Of a stretch of DNA of 21,166 bases, positions 3,527 through 16,745 are shown in pieces; the first letter of the stretch is position 1, and each line of letters opens with the position of its first letter. The notes under the pieces are model-generated. The model saw only the letters and a list, made by a program, of their open reading frames with translations, was not told where the DNA came from and made no database searches. The translations under genes were made by a program, and so were the position numbers. The DNA is from a virus. The DNA lies in the IMG/VR virus record IMGVR_UViG_3300021963_000772, positions 1 through 21,166 of that record. One strand, given 5' to 3'.

Positions 3527-4393
3527 TTATGCATTAATTCGGGTAAGTAGTTTCTCTGTTCCAACAATATTTTGGAAGAGGTAATCGTCTCCAGAACCAC
3601 GTTGGCTGTACTTTTTCAACTCTCTAGCTTCATTAACCACGGTTCTAGCATTCATGTAATAATTTTCATCATGCACCCGTCTGGTGTAAATTAGCGTTTT
3701 AATTCCAGCTATGTTTGTATCCATTGTTGTTACTGTTGATAAACTTAAACTGGATACACCACTTCCGTTTATACTTGCATTAATGGTATTTGCGTAGGTT
3801 GAAATTGTGGTGATATATGAATTTACTGTATTTCCTATCAATAAACTTGTAAAACTTCCCATAACTGGTGCTGAATTTGAAACACCTGATGACTGATAGG
3901 CTATGTACGATAATGTTTTTCCTAAACCTATTGCAGAATCATAAAATGGTTTATCGTTGTTACTTTCATCCACTTGCGTCATTGGAGTAACACCAGAAAT
4001 TCTATTCGTATGTGCGACAAATTTGGTAATCTCACCCTCCACAGTAACATAAACTGGACTAATTTCTGTACCCGAATTGTATGTGTAACCAGTCAAAGCT
4101 TTACAAGTGTTAGCAATATTCGAAAATAAGTTTGTGATGGCCATTGTTGTGCCACCGTTAGAAGGAAGATTTGTATTAATTAATGAAATGGACGTATTGA
4201 CTGTAGCCATGGTCGTTGAGAACGGATTCGTAACATAACCATTTACTGTATTATTAGCAATGTCGTTTGATTGCCATTCTTCCAAAATTGGAGGAATAGA
4301 ATCTAGATAACTTTTTGTGTCATCCGAATATTCTCGAACTCTACCTTCAGAGTCATCAAAATTATATCCAAGTCTATCAAATAATGTAGCCAT
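3527..4393 (-). CDS. Unidentified virion structural protein in the baseplate operon
   Basis: 288 residues with no domain I can name. The N-terminus (ATLFDRLGYNFDDSEGRVREYSDDTKSYLDSIPPILEEWQ) and C-terminus (YYMNARTVVNEARELKKYSQ) look alpha-helical, while residues about 45-240 are rich in Thr, Ser and Asn with few charges. I recall similar proteins at this place, between the spike and gp25, in other environmental T4-like phages, always without a known function. Its start has a GGAAA ribosome site and it lies 11 bp after the spike gene, so it is co-expressed with baseplate genes. A role on the virion is inferred from context only; no catalytic motif is visible. Confidence 0.8.
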   Translation of the reverse strand: MATLFDRLGYNFDDSEGRVREYSDDTKSYLDSIPPILEEWQSNDIANNTVNGYVTNPFSTTMATVNTSISLINTNLPSNGGTTMAITNLFSNIANTCKALTGYTYNSGTEISPVYVTVEGEITKFVAHTNRISGVTPMTQVDESNNDKPFYDSAIGLGKTLSYIAYQSSGVSNSAPVMGSFTSLLIGNTVNSYITTISTYANTINASINGSGVSSLSLSTVTTMDTNIAGIKTLIYTRRVHDENYYMNARTVVNEARELKKYSQRGSGDDYLFQNIVGTEKLLTRINA

Positions 4394-4404
4394 TTATTTT
4401 CCAA

Positions 4405-5394
4405 TCATATCATTTTTGTATAAGGAGGCCCGTAAACTTTACCAGGATGCAGGTGTATATTGTACATTGTAGTGTTAATTAGGTCTGTCATCCAAATAGC
4501 ATTAGAAATACCAGAGTTCACGATACCAAAAGTTGCTAGTGGAGCGGTCATAGAAATAAATGAAACGATTGGGCCGGCCGTAAAAATTGAAACAGGTATC
4601 GCTAAAGGTGAAGCAGGAGTGGGAAATCCTAACGAAAGACCGCCAGTACCAGAAGTAAATCCCATTAAACCAGCACCAATACCACCAAGTGGACCAGTAT
4701 CTATACGACCTAATCCAACAGGGTCTTGTACAAGTAGTGAATAGCATGTTACTGCACCCTCAATCACCAAGTCACCTTTAATAATCTTACTGTCACCAGT
4801 TAAAAACTTCATGTAACCCAATGCAGTAGGGTTTACGCCAAGATTACAGTTACCACTTGAAATGATACTTAAATCACGTTTAGTGGATACACTATAATCA
4901 CCTTTCACATAAAGAATATAATCACCATCAACTCTTTCATACTTGTCGCCTTTGGTGTGAACAATAGAATCACCTTCAATCGTGATACTACAAACTCCTT
5001 TTACCAACATGTTCTTGTTTTTCAGATGTATCTCATACCCATCACCAAAAACTTTGTGTACCTCATCACTATTTGGATGAATCTCAGTAAATGTTCCTGT
5101 TCTGTGTTGAATACGAACACGCTCACGGCCAGGTGTATCGTCCAATTCAATAGAGTGGCGAGATTCTGATTGCCAAATTTTATTGTATGGATATACTGGT
5201 GGATTTTCTACTGAAGCCGGAGATTCAGGTTCAGTCCAAGACCTATCAAAACTTGGTTTACTAGCTAGTGCTTCCTTATCGGCTGTTAAAGGAGTTTTTA
5301 CATCACCAGTTAACAGAGTAGGATCTGACGTTCCTAATGCGTTTGTTCTAGCTGATTGTGTTAAGTTATTTAAATTTTGTGCTAATGTAGCCAT
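4405..5394 (-). CDS. Beta-helical central spike protein (gp5 C-terminal/VgrG-like)
   Basis: 329 residues. After a disordered-looking N-terminus, residues about 78-180 carry short repeats alternating hydrophobic and charged residues (HSIELDDTPG, VRIQHRTGTFTEI, GDGYEIHLKN, SITIEGDS, KGDKYERVDGDY, KGDYSVSTKRDL). This is the pattern of the triple-stranded beta-helix in T4 gp5 and VgrG spikes. The middle, about 225-300, is Gly/Ala/Pro-rich and hydrophobic. The C-terminus has NIHLHPGKVYGPP; an HxH pair (His314, His316) close to the end recalls the iron-binding tip of phage spikes such as P2 gpV. It is 19 bp downstream of the OB-fold gene, so the T4 gp5 role appears divided between the two genes. 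The fold is inferred from the pattern, without a structural search. Confidence 0.82.
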   Translation of the reverse strand: MATLAQNLNNLTQSARTNALGTSDPTLLTGDVKTPLTADKEALASKPSFDRSWTEPESPASVENPPVYPYNKIWQSESRHSIELDDTPGRERVRIQHRTGTFTEIHPNSDEVHKVFGDGYEIHLKNKNMLVKGVCSITIEGDSIVHTKGDKYERVDGDYILYVKGDYSVSTKRDLSIISSGNCNLGVNPTALGYMKFLTGDSKIIKGDLVIEGAVTCYSLLVQDPVGLGRIDTGPLGGIGAGLMGFTSGTGGLSLGFPTPASPLAIPVSIFTAGPIVSFISMTAPLATFGIVNSGISNAIWMTDLINTTMYNIHLHPGKVYGPPYTKMI

Positions 5395-5413
5395 TTAATT
5401 TCCTATAATATAA

Positions 5414-6781
5414 TTACGGTCCACGAACGCCGCCTTCAGAGCTATTAGCAACTGGAGTTGGTGCTGCGGCTGCAGCTGCGTTTGCCTCAGCTGTATTATT
5501 TGTCACTAAACCTTTAAAAAATGTCAAAGCTTCTTGTTGTTCCGCTTCACTTGTTGGTGTAACAAAAGCAGCAAGTAATTGAGCTGGAAAAGTAATAATT
5601 TTTACGGTCTCTGTAATGATTTGACCTGTTACACTAATTGTTTCTTGGACTTCTTTCACCAAATCACCAAAGTCACTACCAAATCCTAAAGAGCCAAACA
5701 TATCCGAAAAGATTCGTGCTAATGCACCTAAAAATTCAGCTAAACATTTTCTCAAAAATGCCAAAAGTTTTGCTGGCAAGCTTAAAATATAATCAATCAT
5801 TGCACGAATATAACGGACAATTCTGGTGATAACATTTAAAGCTGCATTAACCATTTTTAAGAAATCACGTATTTCCCTCAATATTCTATTAAACTTACGA
5901 AGTGTTTCAGTAATCTTTTTGAGTGTTCCAGATGGATCCAAATTCATACCAGAAGTAATTCCGTTCACAATAAATCTAATTAGTTCACCAAGTTTTGTCA
6001 TCATAACTTTTGCCCAATCAGATATACCCTTCAATTCATTTGATATATCACAAACGTGTTCTCTGCGAGAATTCGTTACAAGATGAACAGTTCCGGTTAC
6101 CTCACCTCTAGCAATTCTTGGCACAGATGGTTCACCAACTACGCCATCTTTTGAATAACCTGGTTCTCTTGGACCTTGATTGATTTCAGCTTGACTTCTT
6201 GGATCTCTATACCCGCCTGGAGGTTGAGCTTCATTTATTGCATTATATTGTGCAACTCTTTCTTCCAAACTTTTAACAAGTCTTCTTTGTTCTTCAATTT
6301 GTTTGTCAACATCTTTTATATCTGCCCATCTTTGTAAGCCTCCAGTATCTTCAGGATTTGGCTTACTAGCAGCAAGAGTATTTTTTTTCTTTACTAGGTC
6401 GTCTAGTTTTGCTCTTTGTGTATTAAGTTCATCTTTTAAAGCGTTAACAACGTCAGTAGATGAAGTAACTTCTCGTCTTGTATCGGATACAATTCCAGGA
6501 AATACACCTATTACAACAGGTTGTTGACCCTCTTTACCATCCATAAAGAAGCCCATAACCCATTCACCTTCTTTTGGAACGGTGAATGATGTAGCTCCGT
6601 TAGTTGGTAATAGAATTGAAGACCAAGGTAATTTGTCTGTAGGTAATTCCGCTTTGTTGTCTGTGTGCCAACCAATGATTCTAACACGAAGACGACCAAC
6701 TTTCAAGGGGTCTTCTCGTGCTTCAACGATACCTACCCACCAGATAAAGCCATTTTTACCAGAAAAATCCGAATCACTCAT
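5414..6781 (-). CDS. Baseplate hub OB-fold protein (gp5 N-terminal-like) with long helical C-terminus, no lysozyme domain
   Basis: 455 residues. Residues 1-100 match the gp5/VgrG-type OB-fold that connects hub to spike: WWVGIVEAREDPLKVGRLRVRIIGWH, LPWSSILLP and EGEWVMGFFMDGKEGQQPVVIGVFPG. Residues about 110-180 are charged and coiled-coil-like. Residues about 185-240 are Pro/Gly-rich. Residues about 245-425 are a run of amphipathic to hydrophobic helices with many Arg/Lys (IVRYIRAMIDYILSLPAK). The tail is Ala-rich. T4 gp5 has a lysozyme domain after its OB domain; I see no Glu-Asp-Thr lysozyme motif here, and the beta-helix is encoded by the next gene. The ATG overlaps the stop of the gp27-like gene by one base and has an AGGAA ribosome site. 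gp5 equivalence of the N-terminus is firm; the role of the helical half is unknown. Confidence 0.88.
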   Translation of the reverse strand: MSDSDFSGKNGFIWWVGIVEAREDPLKVGRLRVRIIGWHTDNKAELPTDKLPWSSILLPTNGATSFTVPKEGEWVMGFFMDGKEGQQPVVIGVFPGIVSDTRREVTSSTDVVNALKDELNTQRAKLDDLVKKKNTLAASKPNPEDTGGLQRWADIKDVDKQIEEQRRLVKSLEERVAQYNAINEAQPPGGYRDPRSQAEINQGPREPGYSKDGVVGEPSVPRIARGEVTGTVHLVTNSRREHVCDISNELKGISDWAKVMMTKLGELIRFIVNGITSGMNLDPSGTLKKITETLRKFNRILREIRDFLKMVNAALNVITRIVRYIRAMIDYILSLPAKLLAFLRKCLAEFLGALARIFSDMFGSLGFGSDFGDLVKEVQETISVTGQIITETVKIITFPAQLLAAFVTPTSEAEQQEALTFFKGLVTNNTAEANAAAAAAPTPVANSSEGGVRGP

Positions 6782-10548: not shown

Positions 10549-11127
10549 ATGGCATATCTAATTAACAGAATAAAAGAATCTTTAGCTAAAGAAGGATTGA
10601 CACCAAGAACCGTCAAAGCTAGAGATTGGCTAAAAGCAAAAGTCTCCGAATTGAGACCAACCAAAACAACTTTGATGAAAGATAGAGATAGATTAAGAAA
10701 TTCATCAATCATTGGAAAGATGTATTTTTATTATTACGATCCAAAGACAAAAGATAGAATGCCATACTACGACAGGTTTCCTCTGGTTATACCCGTTGAA
10801 CAATACGCTGATGGTTTTCTTGGTTTAAACTTACACTACATTCATCCAAAACAACGTATGATTTTGTTGGATAAGTTGAGTGAAACAACCAATAACGACA
10901 AATACGATAAAACAACAAAGTTGCGTATAAGTTATGAATACTTGGCGGCTTCTACAAAGGCCTTTGAAGCACAGCCTTGCATTAAAAGATATCTGTTCAA
11001 TCACATAGATTCTAGGTTTTTGGAAATTACAGCAGACGAATGGGATATTGCAGCTTTATTGCCTGTAGAATCTTTCGTTGGTGCAACCACAAGTAAAGTT
11101 TACGCAGACTCACGGAAAAAATTCTAA
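10549..11127 (+). CDS. Probable DNA end protector protein (gp2-like)
   Basis: 192 residues. The N-terminus is basic (INRIKESLAKEGLTPRTVKARDWLKAKVSELRP), followed by a well-conserved-looking core, GKMYFYYYDPKTKDRMPYYDRFPLVIP and DGFLGLNLHYIHPKQRMILLDKL, and a C-terminus with IKRYLFNHIDSRFLEITADEWDIAALLPVESF. From memory this family lies beside gp4 in marine T4-like phages and is annotated gp2, the protein bound to packaged DNA ends that protects against host RecBCD. T4 genes 2 and 4 are also neighbours. I could not compare it with T4 gp2 directly, so the name is moderately supported. The stop overlaps the next start (TAATG). Confidence 0.85.
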   Translation: MAYLINRIKESLAKEGLTPRTVKARDWLKAKVSELRPTKTTLMKDRDRLRNSSIIGKMYFYYYDPKTKDRMPYYDRFPLVIPVEQYADGFLGLNLHYIHPKQRMILLDKLSETTNNDKYDKTTKLRISYEYLAASTKAFEAQPCIKRYLFNHIDSRFLEITADEWDIAALLPVESFVGATTSKVYADSRKKF

Positions 11128-11921
11128 TGTCATTCTCACCACAATTATTTTTATCAAATATTAAAGCTAAAGACGGTTTGGCAAAGCCAAGCCGATATGA
11201 AGTCATTCTTCCTATTCCAGCTCCAGTAAATAATAACATTGGTAATTCTATCATTGAACAATTGTTGAATTTACCAAACAGTATCTATACTGACATATCG
11301 TCCGTATTTACTTCTGGTGGAAAAGAAATAGACTCACAATCAAAAACAACTAATGCTTCAATTAGTCGCTATTTGGCATTACAATGTGAAAACACAGAAA
11401 TACCAGGTAAAACATTACAGACCGCAGATGCTAAGATTTATGGTCCAATTTTTAAAGTGCCATATCAGACAAATTTTACCGAAACTTCATTTACATTTCT
11501 CTGTACGAATCAATTTTATGAAAGAAAATTATTTGAGAAATGGATGGAGTGTATCATGCCTAGTGATACAAACAATCTAAGATTTCCAAAAGGAGACAAT
11601 AGCAGATACATGACCAACATTAAGATTATGCAATATGACGATTTCATTAAGCGCATTTTTGCTGTTGAGTTGATTGATGCATACCCTATTGGTATCTCTA
11701 ACCAACAGTTATCTTGGAGTGAAGATGGTTTTCATAGAATGACCGTTCAATTCACCTATCAAAAATATCGTGTTATATACGATAGTGGCTATGATATTGG
11801 TGCAGCTATCGCTGCATTGGTTGGTGTAAAAACCGCACCGTTTGTCGATAGAATCGGTAACGGAATCAACAATACTGTTGCTGATATTTCTAGAAGTTTG
11901 GGAATTCCAAATTTATTTTAA
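11127..11921 (+). CDS. gp54: Baseplate tail tube initiator, gp54-like (tube fold)
   Basis: 264 residues; T4 gp54 is 320. These proteins form the last ring of the baseplate on which gp19 tube hexamers polymerise. Features of the gp19/gp54 tube fold are visible: a start with KAKDGLAKPSRYEVILPIP, TEIPGKTLQTADAKIYGPIFKVPYQTNFTETSFTFLC, FYERKLFEKWMECIM, then IKIMQYDDFIKRIFAVELIDAYPIGISNQQLSWSEDGFHRMTVQFTYQKYRV. The last segment matches the T4 motif around GCIPVAVSSPELSYED. The first base of its ATG is the last base of the previous gene's stop. A normal tail tube (gp19) cannot be fully excluded, but placement among baseplate genes favours the initiator. Confidence 0.83.
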   Translation: MSFSPQLFLSNIKAKDGLAKPSRYEVILPIPAPVNNNIGNSIIEQLLNLPNSIYTDISSVFTSGGKEIDSQSKTTNASISRYLALQCENTEIPGKTLQTADAKIYGPIFKVPYQTNFTETSFTFLCTNQFYERKLFEKWMECIMPSDTNNLRFPKGDNSRYMTNIKIMQYDDFIKRIFAVELIDAYPIGISNQQLSWSEDGFHRMTVQFTYQKYRVIYDSGYDIGAAIAALVGVKTAPFVDRIGNGINNTVADISRSLGIPNLF

Positions 11922-11940: not shown

Positions 11941-12675
11941 ATGTTACCTAAAATTGATGTGCCTGTTTATGAACTTTCTGTTCCATCTACTGGTAAAAAA
12001 ATAAAGTTTAAACCTTTCACCGTCAAAGAAGAAAAACTTCTTTTGATGGCTTACCAGTCTGAGGATGCAAAATACTCAATTGATACAATCGTTCAAGTTT
12101 TAAATAACTGTATGGTTGGAGATGTTGATGTGACTAATTTTCCAACTTTCGACATTGAATATTTGTTCTTGCATTTGAGAGCACGTTCTGTTGGTGAAGT
12201 TGTTAATTTGAAATATCGTTGCAATAATACCATCGAAACAAAAGAAGATGGGTCGGAAGTTAAATGCAATGGCCAAGTGCAAATTGATTTAAATGTTTTA
12301 GAAGTAGATATACATCGTTCTCCAGAACACACCAATAAAATTGAAATTACAGATAAACTTGGTATTGTGATGAAATACCCAAAAATGAATTTCATACAAA
12401 ACGATAAAATAGATGATGAGTTTCAAGTTGTTTTGGATTTGATTGTTGATTGTATTGATTACATCTATGATGAACAAAATCTATATTATGCTAAAGATTC
12501 AACTAAAGAAGAACTCACAGATTTCTTAGATTCACTACAAGGTAAAGACTTAGAAAAAATTAAAAACTTTTTCGATACGATGCCTAAAATGAGAAAGACT
12601 GTCGATTTCAAATGTAAAAAGTGTGGTTATCAAGAAGACATGCAGCTTGAGGGTCTTCAAAGTTTTTTCGGATAA
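11941..12675 (+). CDS. gp26: Baseplate hub assembly / tail chaperone protein, gp26-like (0-frame product)
   Basis: 244 residues. It starts MLPKIDVPVYELSVPSTGKKIKFKPFTVKEEKLLLMA, the typical opening of the T4-like base plate protein family annotated gp26 in environmental phages. Cys94 and Cys109 (flanking a small loop) plus Cys225-x2-Cys228 near the C-terminus suggest a split zinc ribbon. The start has a good TGAGGA ribosome site 11 bp upstream. It precedes the tape-measure candidate, the place of tail assembly chaperones in long-tailed phages. The 0-frame ends at 12675, but a slippery T TTT TTC six bases before the stop and an open -1 frame suggest a minor longer product of about 307 residues. 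gp51 is the alternative T4 counterpart. Confidence 0.85.
   Translation: MLPKIDVPVYELSVPSTGKKIKFKPFTVKEEKLLLMAYQSEDAKYSIDTIVQVLNNCMVGDVDVTNFPTFDIEYLFLHLRARSVGEVVNLKYRCNNTIETKEDGSEVKCNGQVQIDLNVLEVDIHRSPEHTNKIEITDKLGIVMKYPKMNFIQNDKIDDEFQVVLDLIVDCIDYIYDEQNLYYAKDSTKEELTDFLDSLQGKDLEKIKNFFDTMPKMRKTVDFKCKKCGYQEDMQLEGLQSFFG
12649..12669 (+). promoter_or_regulatory. Candidate programmed -1 ribosomal frameshift signal
   Basis: In the gp26 reading frame the codons AGT TTT TTC form the heptamer T TTT TTC (12663-12669), a canonical X XXY YYZ slippery site. A Shine-Dalgarno-like GAGGG at 12649-12653 lies 9 nt upstream, close to the spacing of the stimulator in E. coli dnaX. The 0-frame stop TAA follows at 12673. 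Downstream I find only a weak 5-bp AT stem (12685-12689 with 12700-12704), so an upstream-SD mechanism is more likely than a pseudoknot. Confidence 0.7.
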
Positions 12676-12863
12676 CATTTGGCCATGATAACCTAGAGAA
12701 TCATTACAATACAAACTTTGCTATGATGCAACACCACAAGTATAGTTTGACTGAATTGGAGAATATGATTCCTTGGGAAAAAGATATCTACGTGAATATG
12801 CTAATCAGATATCTTGAAGAAGAAAATGAGAGAATTAAAAATTTAAATCAAAAGAGAAAATAA
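12669..12863 (+). CDS. -1 frame extension of the gp26-like chaperone (T-like domain)
   Basis: Open -1 frame giving 64 further residues after the slip (R-I-T-F-G-H-D-N-L-E and on), ending at TAA 12861-12863, directly before the tape-measure ATG at 12864. The frame opens at 12651 after a TGA and holds no ATG, GTG or TTG until 12723, where the ATG has no convincing ribosome site, so independent translation would lose a conserved-looking segment. The peptide contains HHKYSLTELENMIPWEKDIYVNMLIRYLEEENE, a hydrophobic/aromatic pattern like the short T-type domains of tail assembly chaperones. I infer expression as a fusion to the gp26-like protein; a separate short gene from 12723 (46 residues) is the alternative. 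Confidence 0.7.
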   Translation, partial: RITFGHDNLENHYNTNFAMMQHHKYSLTELENMIPWEKDIYVNMLIRYLEEENERIKNLNQKRK

Positions 12864-14756
12864 ATGGCCACAGCACCAGCAACATCAACAAAACTTGCAG
12901 ACATAATTAAATATCGCCGAAAACAAGGCGGCGGTGTTGCTAGTTCTTTGGCCGGTGGCATTAAAGAAAAACTTAAAGAGAAGTTTGATCCACGCCAAAT
13001 ATTTGACCAACAAGGTATTTTGACAGCTTTGTTTCCTGGTCTAAAAGCATTTAAAGCAACGACCGGTCCAAAACAAGAATTAAAAGATAAGATTGCTCCA
13101 TCTATATCCTTTGAAGAAATTGTTCCTGTATTGGAAAAAATCAATGCAAACACCAGAATAATTTCAAAAAATATGATGGTGTTACCAGCAATGCATCGTG
13201 ATATCAATGTGATGAGGCAAAATATTGGTAAACTTGTCAAACTTAAAGGCGCAAGTGCATCAAATAAAGCTGACATGTACTTTATGAAGGCTAAGGAAAG
13301 AGAAGCTCTTTATGAAGAACAATATAAAAAAGTACCAACAAGAATATCACCATCAGGATCAGGATCACCAGATTCTGGCGATAAAGAAGAAGGTGGTGCT
13401 GGTTTAATTGCATCTTTTGCTAATAGTATTATTGATGCTATCGGTTCTTTGGGTAAAGCTATATTAACTGCGTTTTCAACTTTAGCTGGTATATTAAAGA
13501 ATTTATTTTTCGCATTAGTTGTTCCGGTTGTATCAGCTATTTTAAGTGCTTTAGGTTCCGTATTAGGAACATTGATAATTGAATTCATAAAAGGTTTAGG
13601 CATATTTTCGAGTATAGGTAAGTTTTTGAAATTCTTAGTAACAAGAATTTTACCTAGATTGTTTTGGCCTTTAGCTATAGCTGCAGCGGCTTATTATATC
13701 AACGACAAATTTAATATATTTGGAAATTTATATGAAGGCATGGCTGAAGGAAGAATTCAAGATGCTGTAGATACATTACCGATGCCAAATATTAAAGTCG
13801 GTGAAGAAGTTTCTCCAGGACAATTTGCTACAAAAGAAGTTTTAGCTAGACCAGGAAAACCAAGAGATTTTAAAAATGTCTCAGCTTTGAATGAGTCTGG
13901 ACCAGAAAAAATGTATAATCCAACCGTAGCTAAAGAAGTTAGGGATGGAAAAAGACAAGCTTACAACCTTGTTTTTCCTGGTTTAACCGGTCAAAGAAGC
14001 CGACTATCTTTACCATTAACAGAAAATGAAGCCTTAGATTTTGGTAAAAAATACGCAACTCTAAATTCTACACTACAACAATTGGACGCTTTAAGGAAGA
14101 AAAAGAAAGAAAGTAGAAGTCCAGGTGAAGAAAGACAATATCAAAAAGACATTGATAATAAAAACATTGTTCTTTCAGAACTTTTGGATTACATAAGAAG
14201 AAAATATAAAGAAATTGTAGAAAAATCTTTTCATCCAGAAATTTTAAACAATACTAGAGGTTTGAGTAGTGTGGGTACAGCTTTTGGTGGAGTTAAAGGT
14301 TTAGTTGATGATATGCAAAAGATGATTGATAATCCAGAAATTCAAGCATCATCATTAGTCATACCAAACGAATTTAAAGAAGCTTTTGATTTCGGTGTTG
14401 ATGAAGACAGTCTCAACAAAGCAGGCGCAGCTGCAACAGAAAAAGTTGCTCCAATAATCAGAGGAAAAGTAGAAGAAGCGGTGACAAATTTGAGATTGGA
14501 TCCAAGCCAATTTACACCACAACTTGAAGCACCAAAAGATGGAACTGGTGCAGGTCAACAAATACAACAAAAATCAGGTGAAGTAAAATCAGAAAAACAA
14601 AGTTCATTAATGATGGATCAATCAGACACCAAAGTTTCTAGTTTGACTTCAAATAAAGGTACTTCAAGTGTTACTCATATTCCTGAAGAAGCTTCACCTT
14701 GGAATATGGACTTAATTGGAAACATTTTAACTGGCCAAAGAGCACTAATAGGTTAA
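12864..14756 (+). CDS. Tape-measure-like tail protein
   Basis: 630 residues. Residues 1-155 form a basic domain shared with the next gene (KLADIIKYRRKQGGGVASSLAGGIKEKLKEKFDPRQIF, LFPGLKAFKA, MVLPAMHRDINVMRQN, KADMYFMKAKEREALYEE). A Ser/Pro/Gly linker follows, then about 178-280 is a long hydrophobic stretch with several possible membrane segments (NLFFALVVPVVSAILSALGSVLGTLII). The remainder is mainly charged helix to the end. Length is near T4 gp29 (590), and hydrophobic segments plus position directly after a frameshifting chaperone are tape-measure traits. I see no hydrolase motif. The start is 0 bp from the stop of the -1 frame, with AGAGAAAA as a weak ribosome site. Function is inferred from context, not from direct similarity to gp29. 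Confidence 0.75.
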   Translation: MATAPATSTKLADIIKYRRKQGGGVASSLAGGIKEKLKEKFDPRQIFDQQGILTALFPGLKAFKATTGPKQELKDKIAPSISFEEIVPVLEKINANTRIISKNMMVLPAMHRDINVMRQNIGKLVKLKGASASNKADMYFMKAKEREALYEEQYKKVPTRISPSGSGSPDSGDKEEGGAGLIASFANSIIDAIGSLGKAILTAFSTLAGILKNLFFALVVPVVSAILSALGSVLGTLIIEFIKGLGIFSSIGKFLKFLVTRILPRLFWPLAIAAAAYYINDKFNIFGNLYEGMAEGRIQDAVDTLPMPNIKVGEEVSPGQFATKEVLARPGKPRDFKNVSALNESGPEKMYNPTVAKEVRDGKRQAYNLVFPGLTGQRSRLSLPLTENEALDFGKKYATLNSTLQQLDALRKKKKESRSPGEERQYQKDIDNKNIVLSELLDYIRRKYKEIVEKSFHPEILNNTRGLSSVGTAFGGVKGLVDDMQKMIDNPEIQASSLVIPNEFKEAFDFGVDEDSLNKAGAAATEKVAPIIRGKVEEAVTNLRLDPSQFTPQLEAPKDGTGAGQQIQQKSGEVKSEKQSSLMMDQSDTKVSSLTSNKGTSSVTHIPEEASPWNMDLIGNILTGQRALIG

Positions 14757-14759
14757 TAA

Positions 14760-16745
14760 ATGGCAAAATTATCCGAAATAATTAAATATCAGCGCTCGCA
14801 AGGAAAAGGAGTTGGTTCTTCTTTAGCTGGTGGTATTAAAGAGAGACTGAAAGAAAAATTTGACCCTAGAAAGATGTTCAATCAAAAGGGTTTAATGGTA
14901 TCTTTGTTTCCTGGTCTAAAAGCATATAGAGCAAAGACAACGAAAGAAAAATTAATATCGAAAAATGTAACAGGAGATTTTCTTACAGTAAAACCTCTGT
15001 TTGAATCCATTGATGCAGGTTCAACTTTATCTGCAAAAAACTCAATGGTTTTACCATCTATGCATCGTGATTTTAATATTATGAGGCAGAATGTAATCAA
15101 ATTAGTAAAATTAGAAAATGTTAAGCCCGCAACAAAAGCAGATATGTATTTTGTAAAAGCTTCTGAAAGAGAAAAGCTTTACGAATCTGAAATGCAAACC
15201 AAAAAGGGTGTAAAATCTTCCAGTCCGACAAAATTGGAAACTTCTAAAAATTCACCATCAAGAAGTGGTTTTTCCGTTGGATTTAAATTTATTGCCTTAT
15301 TAGCAGCTGGTGCTTTGATTGTGAAAGCGATTGAAAAGATTGAAAAAGAAGACATAAAAAAAGCATTGACAGATTTTATTTCTTTCATAACAGGTTCTTT
15401 TTCTGCAAATGCGGCAATAAATCGTAATCCAGGAAATATTTCAAAAGATAGCAGTGGAAAATTGTATAAAGAAATACAAATTTCTGAAGCTGAAAAAGAA
15501 CTTAATAAATTTAAATTTAAAGATTTGTCAGAAGCACAAAAGACTGCTTTTTTTGAATCACAATTTAAATCAGAAGGAAATAAACCAGGAACTATAGCTT
15601 ATGACCAAAATAATCCTGGCGCAATGGTTTATAGAGAATGGATGAAGAAATATGGTGGTGAACCAGGAAAAACTGTTATTGGTCCAGATGGAATAACAAG
15701 AACATTTGCTAAATTTCCAACACTCGAAAAAGGTAAAGAAGCACAAAGAGCTCTTTGGGAATCGGAAGCTTATTCAGAAAAACCACTTGGCCAAGCTTTA
15801 AGAACTTGGGTAACACCAATGGGTGATGATGCAAATACTGCTTTCGCTGGTTATGTGGAGAGAGGTCGAACTGCTATAACAAAAGTTGGGCCGTTGCCTG
15901 CTCAAACTGTAAGTCAACCACCAACAACAGCTCGTGATTATAGTGTATCACAATCCGATTCATCACAACGAACACCATCCGTGCCTTTTGTTCCAGGTCA
16001 AGAAGGACTTAGACCACCCATGCAAACGGCCGGTGATATCAACACAAAAGTTTCAGCTGAAGGTTTAAAGACCAACGTTGTTTCATATGGAACAATGAAT
16101 AAAATAGAGAACTTGGTTTTACATCATACTGGTGGCCACGGTCTCCAAGCTACGATACGAACCCTCGAATCGGCGAGAGATGTAAAAGGTACTCAGTATG
16201 CTACACATTACGTAATTGACAGAGATGGAAAAGTTTATCAAGTTAGATATGATAGTGATTTATTGTATCACTTAGGAGATACAAGCAAAAGACCTTCCGT
16301 TTTAAATTCAAATACTTTAGGTGTTGAAATTATTGGCAAGGATAGTTCCGATTTTACTCCACAACAAATTGTTGCAGCGAAAGCATTATCTAGCCAATTA
16401 TCAAAGAAATATGGAATACCTTCATCAAATATTTTTGGACACGGTGAAGTATCAGCCGGCAAAATGCCTACAGAAGGAACAGATTTAGCTAAAACTATTC
16501 GTGGAGAATTCTTAGAAGCTGAACAAAAACGTGATAAAAAAGTTTCTCTAATACGTGGTAGTGAAAACATTGGAGAATCTATTAGTCTAGCTTCTGCTAA
16601 AGTAATGTTAGAAGAAGAACTTGGTTTAAATAACTCAGTCTTCATTCTAAGCCAAAACAATACTCACACCAATACTGTTTACTTGCCAAGAGCTGCAGGC
16701 AATATCAATCCAGTCAGACAACTACTAACAAGCAGTCTCGGATAA
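14760..16745 (+). CDS. Tail-associated N-acetylmuramoyl-L-alanine amidase with tape-measure-type N-terminal domain
   Basis: 661 residues. Residues 1-147 are clearly paralogous to the start of the preceding protein. A single hydrophobic segment lies at about 173-190 (FKFIALLAAGALIVKAI). Residues about 255-370 hold a domain with NNPGAMVYREW and FAKFPTLEKGKEAQRALW that I do not name; the pattern recalls phage structural NPG domains. Residues about 448-580 are an amidase_2/PGRP domain: LVLHHTGG (His455/His456), ATHYVIDRDGKVYQV, LLYHLGD, NTLGVEIIG and FGHGEVSAGKMPTEG (His561, Lys568, Glu572). Zn ligands would be one of the HH pair, His561 and a third near 571-572 where AmpD has Asp. It probably cleaves peptidoglycan during DNA entry. 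The gene ends before a terminator. Confidence 0.85.
   Translation: MAKLSEIIKYQRSQGKGVGSSLAGGIKERLKEKFDPRKMFNQKGLMVSLFPGLKAYRAKTTKEKLISKNVTGDFLTVKPLFESIDAGSTLSAKNSMVLPSMHRDFNIMRQNVIKLVKLENVKPATKADMYFVKASEREKLYESEMQTKKGVKSSSPTKLETSKNSPSRSGFSVGFKFIALLAAGALIVKAIEKIEKEDIKKALTDFISFITGSFSANAAINRNPGNISKDSSGKLYKEIQISEAEKELNKFKFKDLSEAQKTAFFESQFKSEGNKPGTIAYDQNNPGAMVYREWMKKYGGEPGKTVIGPDGITRTFAKFPTLEKGKEAQRALWESEAYSEKPLGQALRTWVTPMGDDANTAFAGYVERGRTAITKVGPLPAQTVSQPPTTARDYSVSQSDSSQRTPSVPFVPGQEGLRPPMQTAGDINTKVSAEGLKTNVVSYGTMNKIENLVLHHTGGHGLQATIRTLESARDVKGTQYATHYVIDRDGKVYQVRYDSDLLYHLGDTSKRPSVLNSNTLGVEIIGKDSSDFTPQQIVAAKALSSQLSKKYGIPSSNIFGHGEVSAGKMPTEGTDLAKTIRGEFLEAEQKRDKKVSLIRGSENIGESISLASAKVMLEEELGLNNSVFILSQNNTHTNTVYLPRAAGNINPVRQLLTSSLG

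Follow-up and report, generated by a model that had tools for sequence, protein, structure and literature searches.

Evidence for a programmed −1 frameshift joining gp26-like and gp51-like chaperone sequences in T4-related phages

Does a gp26-like gene that ends one codon after a run of T residues encode a single tail assembly chaperone, or a short and a long one? The question is raised by a virus record of 21,166 bases, probably a fragment, which was analyzed over its whole length (hereafter, the window). Based on profile matches, the window carries T4-like baseplate, head-completion and single-strand-binding genes. A sequence-only reading had proposed that the chaperone gene in this cluster is extended by a −1 programmed frameshift, and comparison with relatives supports that proposal through the slippery heptamer, its phase and the coding constraint on the frame beyond it.

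The chaperone gene and its predicted slip site

The gp26-like gene (11,941–12,675, plus strand) encodes a short tail assembly chaperone of 244 amino acids. The zero-frame product belongs to the gp26 family (PF12322, E 1e-64; phrog_150, E 1e-68), and its AlphaFold2 model has a pLDDT of 86.5. The best solved matches of the N-domain (model residues 1–93) are 3fgx (Z 8.0), HK97 gp13 (2ob9, Z 7.8) and YqbN (3klu, Z 7.1), followed by 5ir0 (Z 5.6) and then by nothing above Z 3.1. Foldseek with the gp26-like model also ranked 2ob9 first, with an E-value that is not significant. The structures 3fgx, 2ob9 and 3klu have been named as phage tail assembly chaperones (PMC9603447). Thus, the predicted fold of the N-domain appears chaperone-like, nearest among the best matches to HK97 gp13, YqbN and Rbstp2171, and the family profiles together with these model matches bear out the assignment of the product as a chaperone.

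The 3′ end of the gene reads GAG GGT CTT CAA AGT TTT TTC GGA TAA. Because the zero-frame codons are AGT TTT TTC GGA TAA, the heptamer T TTT TTC (12,663–12,669, plus strand) lies in the X XXY YYZ phase, just ahead of the stop codon (TAA, 12,673–12,675). The element GAGGG (12,649–12,653, plus strand), a putative Shine-Dalgarno-like stimulator whose position is conserved in relatives, precedes the heptamer by 9 nt. The −1 frame is open from 12,651 and has no start codon for 24 codons, the first ATG, GTG or TTG occurring only at 12,723. After the slip it would run for 64 codons (12,669–12,860) to a TAA (12,861–12,863), and the ATG of the next gene follows immediately at 12,864. The predicted long product therefore has 243 + 64 = 307 residues. 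Everything that the earlier reading had reported here, from the in-phase heptamer and the spacing of GAGGG to the length of the start-free stretch and of the extension, agrees with the sequence base for base.

When the 64-residue −1 translation (12,669–12,863 with its stop, plus strand) was compared by itself with PHROGs, it matched phrog_634, annotated as baseplate hub assembly catalyst (gp51), with an E-value of 1.1e-27. Since this frame alone matches a known family, its openness is not due to chance. The translation also matches the C-terminal end of phrog_150 (E 3e-4), and we consider it a candidate gp51-like C-terminal domain of a long chaperone. A model of the extension shows three helices (pLDDT 78); when two solved chains were compared with it by itself, the better match reached Z 2.8, which is uninformative. 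The Pfam search returned no match to lambda T, and an NCBIfam search returned no useful match. One other candidate identity, Stealth_CR2, was rejected, as its match falls far below the cut-off.

Conservation and coding constraint among relatives

A first search of IMG/VR gave 45 relatives, in which the heptamer with its six T residues is in phase and the −1 frame open wherever the 3′ end of gp26 is present. Widening the search with two further queries, the extension by itself and gp26, raised the total to 207 readable loci in which gp26 and the extension are adjacent. As the first of these queries contains only the extension, the slip site had no influence on the choice of those loci. Every one of the 207 has T TTT TTN in phase and places the extension in the −1 frame. 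The set includes repeats from the same contig, and its 198 complete members reduce to 147, 109 and 38 sequences at 90, 70 and 50% identity, respectively. Two further loci were left out of the 207, one with an unrelated upstream indel (L083) and one that starts inside gp26 (L086); both carry the same junction. The arrangement is also found in cultured phages, namely S-PM2, S-ShM2, Sf-CH5, Cr30, Vibrio V05, Stenotrophomonas Yut2, Aeromonas 65 and Aeromonas CC2. Similarly, ACG-2014d, S-RIM12 and Vibrio D525 have TTTTTTC, an FF-R junction and an open −1 frame.

The extension evolves as a protein-coding sequence in the −1 frame. Its median dN/dS is 0.11, with values below 1 in 299 of 299 pairs at moderate distance, and third codon positions change most (6161 changes, vs 3199 and 1580 at the other positions). 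The other two frames over the same stretch are never open, with a mean of 5.6 and 6.3 stops. The earlier reading had called for homologues in which heptamer phase and −1 frame are conserved with synonymous-rich change, and this is the pattern seen, with phase and frame kept in all 207 loci and synonymous-rich change over the 299 pairs. It had also postulated a T-like domain in the −1 frame; a frameshifted extension under protein-level selection is indeed there, but it belongs to the known gp51 family rather than representing a new domain.

Could the gp51-like reading frame instead be a separate gene, reached by reinitiation or by an internal start beyond the gp26 stop? An in-frame ATG occurs at extension codon 20 in 118 of the 147 loci and could give rise to an extra short product, in some relatives (e.g., V05, Cr30 and Yut2) the gp26 stop overlaps an ATG, as TAATG or TGATG, and records such as those of S-PM2 and V05 annotate the gp51-like frame as its own CDS. 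However, in 63 of the 147 loci no ATG, GTG or TTG is within reach, and the window offers its first start codon 50 nt past the gp26 stop, within the conserved domain. Codons 4–17 of the extension, upstream of the common internal ATG, are themselves constrained (dN/dS 0.15), which a product initiated at that ATG leaves unexplained, as it does the fixed heptamer. We therefore regard a separate gene as improbable.

The heptamer is retained far beyond what the encoded residues demand. The codon ahead of TTT TTN varies (Ser, Asn, Asp, Ala, Gly, Thr or Phe), yet it always ends in T, and in some loci (L038 among them) TTT TTA replaces Phe with Leu while the heptamer is kept. Under a null of synonymous codon choice, with codon usage taken from the same genes, the log10 P of keeping T TTT TT is −56 for the 147 sequences, −42 for the 109 and −14 for the 38; because the sequences are related these values are overstated, and the last, at 50% identity, is the most conservative. 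Elsewhere in these genes six T residues occur in this phase at 27 of 34,315 codon positions.

A run of T could also shift the frame through slippage of RNA polymerase rather than of the ribosome, and the site does consist of six to eight consecutive T. Six T are short for efficient polymerase slippage, however, and the site is exactly TTTTTTC in 101 of the 147 sequences and TTTTTTA in 6. The codon phase is moreover fixed, and a Shine-Dalgarno-like element recurs at 9–10 nt. Slippage during transcription thus seems even less probable to us than a separate gene. Finally, that a sequencing or assembly error split one fused gene, an idea with nothing specific in its favor beyond the error-prone nature of T runs and the unrelated upstream indel in L083, is refuted by the sequences of the relatives, as the same shift at the same site recurs across many metagenomes (207 loci) and in the isolates S-PM2, S-ShM2, Cr30 and Aeromonas phage 65.

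Ribosomal frameshifting may be assisted by upstream pairing with the anti-Shine-Dalgarno sequence. Across the family, this pairing, mostly 9–10 nt upstream of the heptamer, has an energy of −6.2 kcal/mol vs −4.65 kcal/mol expected from synonymous codons (P 3e-8, a value that ignores kinship); in the window it is only slightly above the synonymous expectation (−6.1 vs −5.1). A downstream stem-loop was considered as a stimulator and rejected, as plain folding of the window gave no stable RNA structure downstream of the heptamer (z 0.49) and an Rfam scan of 12,400–13,000 gave no match.

Proposed mechanism and neighboring genes

We conclude, with high confidence from comparative sequence analysis, that a −1 programmed frameshift on T TTT TTC very probably yields a short and a long chaperone of the G/GT kind. 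Most ribosomes would terminate at the TAA at 12,673–12,675 and release the 244-residue short form. A minority would slip by −1 on the heptamer, with the Phe-tRNAs re-pairing from TTT TTC to TTT TTT, and would then decode CGG ATA ACA onward into the 307-residue long form with its gp51-like domain. By analogy with lambda gpG and gpGT, many short and few long copies may form a coat on the tape measure protein, with the extension perhaps recruiting the tail tube subunit. We infer the slippage itself, its efficiency and the binding partners of the domains.

The neighboring genes fit such a role. Directly upstream is a gene for a tail tube family protein of 264 amino acids (11,127–11,921, plus strand; phrog_45 tail tube, E 8e-32; phrog_3629, E 1e-27). 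On the base after the extension stop begins a gene (12,864–14,756, plus strand) for a 630-residue protein with a hydrophobic segment at about residues 200 to 250, which, by position and this segment, we consider a putative tape measure protein. Family searches gave no match for it (tape measure families reached E 0.88, a chance-level value), and no relatives were found in GenBank phages; some genes at the same position in relatives do match tape measure families. The lambda-like G/GT/H layout that had been suggested is thus supported in its order, while the tape measure identity relies on position and the hydrophobic segment.

Several other features of the region were observed. The stretch 12,864–16,745 holds two adjacent paralogues that have about 160 N-terminal residues in common at 52% identity. 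The second (14,760–16,745) has an amidase domain (Amidase_2, E 6e-22) and perhaps stands in for a missing tail lysozyme. On the minus strand, a gp5-like hub/tail-lysozyme protein seems to be split across 4405–6781, with 5414–6781 matching positions 12–111 of phrog_430 and 4405–5394 matching positions 314–454; the part of phrog_430 between them, where T4 gp5 has its lysozyme, is unmatched in both gp5-like genes. Inside the baseplate cluster, a 288-residue protein (3527–4393, minus strand) has no PHROGs match.

Comparison with T4, Ackermannviridae and lambda

The chaperones of the window belong, by profile, to the same gene families as gp26 and gp51 of T4-like phages. In T4 these are separate genes on opposite strands. 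T4 gp51 matches the profile of the fused product over positions 21–279, across the junction (E 6e-13), as well as the extension profile (E 3e-8), both values being from two-sequence searches. T4 gp26 matches the family profile with an E-value of 3e-25 and covers only positions 8–236. Since its alignment with the fused profile spans the junction, T4 gp51 corresponds to a long form read in a single frame; T4 gp26, whose alignment stays within the short form, corresponds to the latter. Accordingly, T4 has its short form and its fused long form in two different genes, whereas in the window a single gene with a slip site takes their place. One relative (L226) has stops in the stretch matched to T4 gp51. 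Judging from these alignments, T4 uses two genes where most of the relatives examined would rely on a single gene with a slip.

Not every member of the gp26 family has the slip site: five Ackermannviridae genomes and Vibrio K368 lack the tandem heptamer, although the −1 frame past their gp26 stop is open. In the Ackermannviridae (L055, L058, L228, L229 and L230), gp26 ends in [A/G] ATT TTC ATT TAA and has no X XXY YYZ motif there; the −1 frame that follows is about 50 codons long. Their extensions have weak similarity to the family (E 1e-4 to 7e-3), and no similarity to the family was detected for that of K368. A possible, if rather doubtful, scenario is that the one-gene frameshift is ancestral in T4-related phages and was replaced in Tevenvirinae by gp26 plus gp51, with Ackermannviridae keeping the −1 extension and reaching it in a second way, by reinitiation or a single-tRNA slip for instance.

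The system in the window is not new in kind, since T4-like chaperone genes and poly-T slip sites have already been published. According to two later papers, Vladimirov, Gautam and Davidson (2022; Virology 566:9–15, pmid 34826709) identified T4-like chaperone genes (PMC10885494, PMC12846349). As cited there, some T4-like phages have a short gene alongside a long one that is fused (PMC10885494), and poly-T tracts within the short chaperone genes of T4-like phages are already known to act as −1 slip signals (PMC12846349). A review describes the G/GT frameshift as conserved among long-tailed phages except T4 (PMC5009743). Conservation across many lineages now supports one gene and a ribosomal slip as the source of both chaperones in T4-related phages other than the T-evens, and T4, long called the exception, achieves two chaperones with two genes. 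With both solutions present in one phage group, the need for a particular short/long ratio becomes testable.

For annotation, this suggests a rule: the many “gp51” genes that are short, begin at odd starts or are absent in annotations of marine T4-like genomes are to be given as joined gp26–gp51 products. The expectation that normal gene calling would miss the extension holds for the GenBank record of ACG-2014d, which leaves it unannotated, but not generally, as GenBank often annotates it from a later codon. Among three cyanophage records (L048, L232 and L233), the gp51 extension starts at a late internal codon in Sf-CH5 and S-RIM12, ACG-2014d being the third.

Outside the T4-like phages, phage Adele (Vandenendeviridae/Andersonviridae) resembles the window in having a conserved poly-T motif (GTTTTT) and a −1 extension that precedes its tape measure gene, in phage families different from that of the window virus (PMC12846349). 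Lambda gpG and gpGT (Levin 1993; Xu 2004, 2013, 2014; summarized in PMC5009743) likewise consist of a short form and a −1 extended long form, with a heptamer near the stop, upstream of the tape measure gene, which in the window is putative. The window extension gives no Pfam match to lambda T. The lambda heptamer is G GGA AAG, in contrast to T TTT TTC in the window. Lambda genes are ordered V-G-T-H, and the window has a like order of tail tube family protein, chaperone, extension and long protein with a hydrophobic segment.
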